DNA of 64,000 nt from an uncultured Alphaproteobacteria bacterium. Its GTDB lineage: Bacteria; Pseudomonadota; Alphaproteobacteria; Rhodospirillales; Rhodospirillaceae. A model generated the notes under the pieces. The model was given only the letters and a program-made list of their open reading frames with translations, was not told the origin of the DNA and searched no databases. Of this stretch, positions 6,808 to 8,479 are shown piece after piece. The stretch is taken from NCBI GenBank assembly GCA_902575965.1, contig CACGTM010000002.1, forward strand, positions 1-64,000. The letters run 5' to 3'. Within the stretch, counting starts at the first letter, position 1. Each line of letters begins with the position of its first letter. The position numbers and the translations under genes are program-made.

Positions 6808-6827
6808 TGGCTCTAATTAATGAATAT

Positions 6828-6881
6828 ATGGCGCCCTTGTTTACCAAAAACAGATTTAAAGATATTAAACAAAGGCACCAT
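6828..6881 (-). repeat. Long inverted repeat (stem-loop) 3' of the small heat-shock gene
   Basis: Arms 6828-6843 and 6866-6881 are 16 nt long and match at 14 of 16 positions. Read as minus-strand RNA, both mismatches become G-U wobbles, so the whole 16 bp stem can form in an hsp20 read-through transcript, with a 22 nt loop. On the plus strand the same positions are C-A mismatches. It sits 17 nt beyond the hsp20 stop; there is no U tract directly after it, so it is not a classical intrinsic terminator. Possible roles are 3'-end protection or factor-assisted termination. Confidence 0.6.
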
Positions 6882-6897
6882 TTATGATACTCAACAA

Positions 6898-7347
6898 TTA
6901 GGCAGCTTTATTAGTAATTTTATGTTCTTGCAAAATCTTTATTGTCTTTGGTTGAAGTGCTTGAGGTATTTCACGTTTCAGAGAGATTTCCAAAAGACCG
7001 TTATGCATGTTAGCTCTAACAACCTCCATAAAATCAGCTAGTTGGAAAGATCTCTTAAAGCCTCGTCTAGATATTCCTCGATAAATAAATTTATTTACAT
7101 CTGATTCTTTTTTCTTAATTGATTTAATAGTTAAAGTATTATTTTCTAATGTAACATCTAGTTCTTCTATTGAAAAACCTGCAAGAGCAAAAATTATCCT
7201 ATATTCATTTTCGCTATCTTTGATAATGTTATGTGGTGGGTAAGTTAATCCTAAATCAGCATGACTAGAAGCGCCCTCTAAAATAGAATTTATTCTGTCA
7301 AAACCAACAGAAGTGCGAAATAATGTATTTAAATTAATATTTTGCAT
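6898..7347 (-). CDS. Small heat-shock protein (Hsp20/IbpA family)
   Basis: A 149 aa alpha-crystallin-domain chaperone. The N-terminus FDRINSILEG resembles IbpA/HspA proteins, the alpha-crystallin domain covers roughly residues 40-135, and the conserved C-terminal strand appears as ANMHNGLLEISLKRE. The C-terminal I-x-I type motif may be TIKIL. Such proteins hold unfolding proteins for DnaK/ClpB. The start ATG at 7347 is preceded by a very strong AGGAGG. The leader carries a promoter of heat-shock type and a structured UTR (separate entries), so control is probably both transcriptional and by RNA melting. Confidence 0.93.
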   Translation of the reverse strand: MQNINLNTLFRTSVGFDRINSILEGASSHADLGLTYPPHNIIKDSENEYRIIFALAGFSIEELDVTLENNTLTIKSIKKKESDVNKFIYRGISRRGFKRSFQLADFMEVVRANMHNGLLEISLKREIPQALQPKTIKILQEHKITNKAA

Positions 7348-7440
7348 AATATCCTCCTAAAGCGATATTTAGTTAATAAAATTTCCTGTGAGCTTCAAAG
7401 CCTCACAAAATCGTAGCATAAAGCCCTGACGGCGCTTTAC
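7348..7440 (-). promoter_or_regulatory. Candidate ROSE-type RNA thermometer in the hsp20 5' UTR
   Basis: Read on the minus strand the leader folds into three hairpins. First: TAAAGC/GCTTTA with an inner CC/GG (7419-7439). Second: GTGA-(G)-GCT/AGC-TCAC, loop TTGA (7388-7406). Third: AUAUC/GAUAU (7349-7368), in which UCGCU faces the Shine-Dalgarno AGGA, allowing the U-A, C-G, G-G, U-A arrangement described for ROSE elements (motif U[U/C]GCU). The likely transcription start lies just before the first hairpin. The arrangement is seen directly; temperature response is inferred from the ROSE family. Confidence 0.7.
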
Positions 7441-7448
7441 ATCACTTG

Positions 7449-7476
7449 ATATAGTTAAAGTTTTAGCTATTTCAAC
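7449..7476 (-). promoter_or_regulatory. Candidate heat-shock (RpoH-like) promoter of hsp20
   Basis: On the minus strand: GTTG (7473-7476), an 18 nt spacer, then CTATAT (7449-7454). The alphaproteobacterial sigma-32 consensus is close to CTTG-N17/18-C(C/T)(T)AT, and the htpG promoter in this window has the same N18 spacing. The -35 half also reads TTGAAA, so a housekeeping promoter cannot be excluded. Predicted start of transcription is near 7441, just ahead of the structured leader. Confidence 0.5.
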
Positions 7477-7504: not shown

Positions 7505-8479
7505 TTATTTAAAAGGCTGGGGCTTCATTTCCCTAGCGTAAACCTCATAGCTGGAAACGTTTGGAACTTTCCATTCAGTAGGAGCTTTAAAATAATCTGG
7601 GAAATTGTCTTTGGTATAAGCGTATATGTGCGGTGGCAGACTCTCTACCCCTTCACTCATTTTCCTAGTTATAGTTTTGTAGAAGAGATGCCCGCTTCTT
7701 TGTCCCATTAGCATCCACGGGAGCCATGGAGCAATTCTTTGCCATGAGCCAGTTACTTGTATTGATGTTTTCTCAGGATCAGTCAATTCTGATATTTTTG
7801 TATGTAATTGGATAGCCTCCATAACCTGGGTAATTGTGCCATGAGACTCTCTAGGCCACTTTTCTGGAAGTAATGTAGCTGGTACGGTTGTGTTAACACC
7901 AAAGTCTACTACTGCATTGTCTCCAATTAGCAACCATGGAAAAATAAAATCCTTAGTAACTTTTTTTGGCCCTATCATAAATGAATATGTAGGAGCCCAT
8001 ACTGAATTTACTGCATCATTATGTACGGGTACAACTCGCACCTTTTCATCAATAATAGGATTATGCCATTCCTCTAAAATCTCACCTGATTTTAAATCGG
8101 TATAATAAGCTACTTCTTTATGAAATTTCTGCCATTTGTAGTTACCTATTTGGTGAGTTCTAGTAACCCCAAATCCTTCATATCCAAACAAAGGTTCAAG
8201 TTTTGTATCTTGTCCCAAATAAGCAAGGACATCCCCTTTGAAGTAACCTAAGGTTTCAACTTCGGGTCGAGTGTCAGCCATTAGTTTACAAAATGCCAGT
8301 GTATTATGGGTTGGATCATTTGGGTCAAAAGCACCTGAGAAACCCAAATCCGTATTATAATTTTCAATCTTGTTTTTGACACTTGAAAAACTTTTTTGAG
8401 AAGCCAAGACAACCCCAAGCGAAGCACCAAGAAGACTTCTTCGATTTAACAGATACTTATCAATTGAAGAAATGATCAT
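7505..8479 (-). CDS. DUF1838 family protein, exported by Tat
   Basis: A 324 aa protein with a Tat-type leader (NRRSLLGASLG at about residues 12-22, then a hydrophobic stretch). The body matches my memory of the DUF1838 family: LFGYEGFGVTR, YTDLKSGEILEEW, a W-rich block RIAPWLPWMLMG followed by HLFYKT, and a C-terminal PDYFKAPTEW. The family has no settled biochemical function and is common in marine and sphingomonad-like bacteria. It stands alone, divergent from the TRAP permease genes with a 156 bp gap that could hold a shared operator. The start is ATG 8479. Confidence 0.8.
   Translation of the reverse strand: MIISSIDKYLLNRRSLLGASLGVVLASQKSFSSVKNKIENYNTDLGFSGAFDPNDPTHNTLAFCKLMADTRPEVETLGYFKGDVLAYLGQDTKLEPLFGYEGFGVTRTHQIGNYKWQKFHKEVAYYTDLKSGEILEEWHNPIIDEKVRVVPVHNDAVNSVWAPTYSFMIGPKKVTKDFIFPWLLIGDNAVVDFGVNTTVPATLLPEKWPRESHGTITQVMEAIQLHTKISELTDPEKTSIQVTGSWQRIAPWLPWMLMGQRSGHLFYKTITRKMSEGVESLPPHIYAYTKDNFPDYFKAPTEWKVPNVSSYEVYAREMKPQPFK

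Follow-up and report, generated by a model that had tools for sequence, protein, structure and literature searches.

Published ROSE elements share a U(U/C)GCU motif, a bulged G, two to four hairpins and a position ahead of a small heat-shock gene (PMC3669281, PMC11342760), and their structures show both the bulged G and a syn G-G pair (PMC11342760). The type represented in Rfam (RF00435, after Bradyrhizobium japonicum hspA) spans 94 positions and comprises three hairpins: the first carries a bulged G beside CC/GG, and the last contains the motif, a bulged G and the Shine-Dalgarno sequence in a stem that extends beyond the start codon. The short ROSE-like elements of Pseudomonas ibpA comprise two hairpins in 61-62 nt; their core is flanked by G-C pairs, and their start codon is unpaired (PMC3669281). 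ROSE-like thermometers of ABC-transporter genes present a bulged G, established by crystal structure, and a U.G wobble right after the motif (PMC11342760). Finally, E. coli IbpA acts on its 5' UTR via residue Arg93 to repress its own translation (PMC10474464).

We analyzed a window of 64,000 nt, the whole stretch of DNA considered here, from the draft genome of an uncultured alphaproteobacterium (1.37 Mb, 58% complete, 35% GC) whose closest named relatives by protein are Rhodospirillaceae and Azospirillum. The window contains an hsp20 gene (Table 1) whose product matches the NCBIfam IbpA model with an E-value of 8e-36, which is under the equivalog cut-off of that model. With its start presumed near 7441 and the ATG at 7347, the leader of this gene is ~94 nt long, and the three-hairpin element within it measures 93 nt. 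In hairpin 3, AAUAUC pairs with GAUAUU and UCGCU faces AGGA (7355-7352), resulting in six pairs, a bulged G and three further pairs; nearest-neighbour folding predicts the bulged G to be G7363. The promoter-like boxes, the leader and the hairpins had been described in an earlier note, and its letters and coordinates were all correct when the sequence was read again.

Table 1. Coordinates of the features at the hsp20 locus, as positions in the window.
Feature	Positions	Strand	Basis
hsp20 gene, IbpA-type small heat-shock protein, 149 aa	6898..7347	minus	Pfam HSP20, E 1.1e-18
Hairpin 3 (ROSE hairpin), AAUAUC (bulged G) CUU UAG GAG GAUAUU	7348..7369	minus	Predicted fold, covariation, covariance model
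Shine-Dalgarno AGGAGG, inside hairpin 3	7353..7358	minus	Sequence; 5 nt ahead of ATG
ROSE motif UCGCU	7361..7365	minus	U(U/C)GCU conserved among orthologue leaders
Hairpin 2, UUUUGUGAG (bulged G) CU UUGA AG CUCACAGGA	7384..7410	minus	Predicted fold
Hairpin 1, GUAAAGC (bulged G) CC GUCA GG GCUUUAU	7418..7440	minus	Predicted fold, covariation, Rfam ROSE consensus
Promoter-like GTTGAA-N16-CTATAT (GTTG 7476-7473, 18 nt, CTATAT 7454-7449)	7449..7476	minus	Sequence

The published features of the class are present in this leader, which is why we assign it to ROSE: the motif is imperfectly paired with the Shine-Dalgarno in the 3'-proximal hairpin, a bulged G is predicted at G7363 in the motif helix, three hairpins occupy ~94 nt (two to four hairpins and 60 to >100 nt in the class) and an HSP20/IbpA-like ORF starts at 7347. 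The leader resembles RF00435 in its three hairpins, in the bulged G beside CC/GG of hairpin 1, in the composition of its 3' hairpin, in its length and in the small heat-shock gene downstream. It differs in being AT-rich and below Rfam detection, and in a last stem that stops ahead of the start codon. The short 3' hairpin with U(U/C)GCU and an unpaired start codon are also found in the Pseudomonas ibpA elements, although these possess fewer hairpins, a shorter overall length and G-C pairs around the core. The ABC-transporter thermometers share the bulged G and the wobble after the motif (U7360.G7356 in the window) but control different genes and have a different upstream architecture. Judged by sequence comparison, the hsp20 leader is confirmed as an ordinary ROSE-type thermometer of a known kind in an AT-rich alphaproteobacterial host.

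Two neighboring features were also recorded. The gene directly upstream of the leader (window 7505-8479, minus strand) encodes a DUF1838 protein (E 1.2e-44). Directly 3' of hsp20 lies a long inverted repeat of 16 pairs (window 6825-6885, minus strand; fold z -5.6), which is conserved in the same-genus genome and has no T run; it may terminate transcription in both directions between convergent genes, or else stabilize the mRNA end.

We compared the leader with those of hsp20 orthologues from ~60 related genomes and 80 named genomes. Of 136 orthologue leaders, 133 carry the motif U(U/C)GCU directly ahead of the start codon, whereas simple arithmetic gives a chance expectation of ~7% for a 40-nt window. 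The stem was evaluated on 121 distinct hairpins with a partner rule set in advance: the four pairs outside the motif all exceeded what shuffling gave, and a fifth and sixth pair were at shuffle level. In an alignment of 46 distinct order-level hairpins that left out the genus of the window, 97.6% of the cells of the last stem were paired, two-sided changes occurred in five of the nine pairs and the bulged-G column of the motif helix was invariant. Covariation in this stem reached 0.411, against 0.266 after shuffling (0/500 shuffles as high), and was at most 0.19 when the alignment was slid. The leader is homologous to the ROSE leaders of its orthologues.

The upstream part of the leader is also shared. 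A hairpin 1 of the same type, with a bulged-G GCC..GG and seven outer pairs, was present in 41 of the 68 leaders examined, against 0.3% of shuffles, and its covariation was stronger than that of the last stem (0.649 vs 0.277 shuffled, 0/500, 28 distinct hairpins). Hairpin 1 of the window corresponds to the first hairpin of the Rfam ROSE consensus and is separated from that of the same-genus genome by two compensated pairs. Hairpin 2 is variable between relatives, and the same-genus genome presents a shorter form (UGAG G CU..AG CUCA).

Rfam gives a different picture of the same leaders. The earlier note proposed a search with the Rfam ROSE covariance model, and the window went unmatched: no match to ROSE, ROSE_2 or ROSE_3 appeared there, even when the thresholds were loosened, and the scans yielded only chance matches. 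The leader falls short of the 45-bit gathering cut-off of RF00435, which is a detection threshold rather than a defining biological feature. The same cut-off passes over 20 orthologue loci, including those of Rhizobium and Mesorhizobium; below it, many relatives score ~22-37 bits with Rfam ROSE at these same leaders. ROSE_2 gave weak matches in relatives, one of them at an hsp20 leader. The Rfam cut-off fails to detect most of the tested orthologous leaders. We used a covariance model of the last hairpin (R1), trained without the genus of the window. On the window's genome, this model recovered the leader at 27.9 bits (E 9.3e-4), and the E-value in the same-genus genome was 0.003. A bare pattern search of the same genome was too unspecific (25 matches), and the covariance model narrowed these to two real sites. 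The leader of the second hsp20 gene of the genome, an internal control, lacks the ROSE motif, so that the thermometer is carried by just one of the two small heat-shock genes. In the genus, this second hsp20 (L002 and L058, G000:C3:67108; L057, G001) has a conserved leader end, AAGAGGUUAUUUAUG, without the motif.

These comparisons uphold the proposal that a ROSE-type element precedes hsp20 with UCGCU opposite the Shine-Dalgarno; the conservation of UCGCU in close relatives, on which the earlier note had staked this proposal, was looked for and is present. They do not support its description of the element as reduced, with a final stem that is very short. The length of the final stem covaries across alpha- and gammaproteobacteria and is therefore the usual one; the window's stem is shorter only relative to the Rfam consensus. 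An identical 20-nt core, AUAUCGCUUUAGGAGGAUAU, occurs in GC-richer surroundings in close relatives (L011, L075 and, from Rhodospirillaceae MAG ANT-94, L082). The presence of hairpins 1 and 2 and a length of 93 nt against 94 Rfam positions likewise speak against a reduced element.

Folding energy by itself is weak evidence for a thermometer. The predicted fold of the whole leader had a z-score of -1.2 (25/200 shuffles as good), and that of hairpin 3 alone -2.2 (6/200; -4.3 kcal/mol). Simulated exposure of the Shine-Dalgarno was 0.39 at 5 C, climbed only to 0.54 at 50 C and was not below that of shuffled leaders; the energies used do not include the non-canonical pairs of ROSE. Removing the bulged G in the simulation tightened the hairpin and destroying the motif opened it, in agreement with published mutants (PMC11342760). 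Neither whole-leader z-scores nor simulated opening separates the leader from shuffles, and both were rejected as discriminating statistics.

Taken alone, the folding z-scores and the 25 genomic matches of the short pattern would permit a chance hairpin around an ordinary Shine-Dalgarno. The conservation of the motif, the compensatory changes in the last stem and hairpin 1 and the independent match of model R1 show that the leader is more than chance, and the covariation already refutes this explanation, to which we assign next to no probability. There is a small chance that the element is a relic or a plain damper, which would lower hsp20 translation at all temperatures after heat sensing was lost within the range of the organism. 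The weak, AT-rich hairpin 3 and its shallow predicted opening with temperature speak for this reading. However, the motif, the bulged G and the stem are letter-identical across distant relatives while other parts of the leader drifted to 35% GC, and the two compensated changes between both members of the genus are not expected of a relic, which would lose motif, bulged G and stem.

It is also conceivable that the main role of the conserved leader is to be bound by Hsp20; the protein would then repress its own synthesis until titrated by aggregates, with melting as a secondary effect. The autoregulation of E. coli IbpA provides a precedent, and the corresponding Arg95 is invariant in an alignment of 14 proteins. 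Nevertheless, three near-complete relatives without any HSP20-family gene keep ROSE-like hairpins, at rpoH, so the element can persist without Hsp20; in E. coli, melting and IbpA feedback coexist. To a primary role as landing site we likewise assign a small probability. We conclude that the hsp20 leader (~7441-7348, minus strand) is very probably a ROSE-type thermometer, closed at growth temperature and melting on warming.

Studied ROSE elements suggest how this thermometer most likely works. At growth temperature, the 3' hairpin would pair UCGCU with AGGA around the bulged G and block ribosomes from loading; on warming, this weak helix would melt and the small chaperone would be made. Correct folding of the 3' hairpin is most likely aided by hairpins 1 and 2. 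Binding of Hsp20 to its own leader may add a further layer: Arg95 and Tyr36 of the window's protein match Arg93 and Tyr34 of E. coli IbpA, and such feedback is possible because these residues, needed in E. coli, are kept.

At the place of the promoter-like boxes, the same-genus relative presents ATTGAA-N15-CTTATA, and several relatives have CTTGA..-CTTAT/CCTAT. A strict RpoH-like pattern of the alphaproteobacterial heat-shock type (CTTG(A)-spacer-C.TAT) fits 19 of 56 relatives' leaders against 1.4% of shuffles. The promoter of the window, with GTTGAA and CTATAT only, does not fit it, and a sigma-70 scan found no promoter on the minus strand of the window. The promoter match is weak, and the putative promoter may be of the heat-shock (RpoH) type or sigma-70-like.

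The second match of model R1 in the window's genome was equally good (28.1 bits; CAUAUUGCUUAAGGAGAAUAUUG, L167:1501-1531, minus strand, G000:C24:1599-1629). This hairpin precedes rpoH (TIGR02392, above cut-off) by 157 nt and stands ahead of a 47-codon ORF overlapping the rpoH start as AUGAAUAG, an overlap that suggests coupled translation. Using a model built without any rpoH leader and counting matches up to ~250 nt upstream of rpoH, we found a ROSE hairpin in 18 of 40 genomes including that of the window (17 of 39 relatives). These hairpins are located 130-220 nt upstream, mostly ahead of an upstream ORF of 12-47 codons. The bulged-G hairpin 1 was also detected in 11 of 22 motif-bearing rpoH leaders (0.1% of shuffles), which suggests that the rpoH elements are copies of the hsp20 element.

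Three layouts were observed at rpoH: nine genomes have ROSE-hsp20-rpoH operons, most of the others have the order ROSE-short ORF-rpoH, and in G012 (L218:417-435) a ROSE-like hairpin stands directly on the rpoH start, with similar but weaker hairpins at that place in G010 (L215) and G028 (L214). The last three are the near-complete genomes that possess no HSP20-family gene. We considered that the short ORFs might be shrunken hsp20 genes and dropped this idea: in the RpoH tree, the copies from hsp20 operons form their own clade apart from the others, and the short ORFs ahead of rpoH show no codon-position bias. The missing bias suggests that the translation of these ORFs, and not their peptide, probably matters. 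Overall, a second ROSE-type thermometer homologous to that of hsp20 probably controls rpoH in the window's genome and its family, mostly from a position ahead of the upstream ORF. Separately, a strong match of 36.8 bits (AUAUCGCUUUAUCGGAGGAUAUCGACAUG, L223, minus strand, G032:C5:34132-34164) precedes an ORF (MSNTQTRETIHRMIGASV...), which is possibly a third class of ROSE-controlled gene.

In E. coli, rpoH is governed by a different thermosensor. In B. japonicum, the rpoH1 gene is clustered with small heat-shock genes, as the title of a 1996 paper also says. We found no published account of ROSE directly on rpoH in a search that covered subscription journals thinly, and a 2014 review describes ROSE as "always associated" with small heat-shock genes (PMC4166951).

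Our results add an uncultured, low-GC alphaproteobacterium to the hosts of a well-known thermometer. The rpoH copies are less ordinary than the hsp20 element and would matter more. If they are true thermometers, ROSE would govern the heat-shock response both from its source and at one chaperone, and it becomes testable whether alphaproteobacteria time their whole heat-shock response through the melting of RNA.
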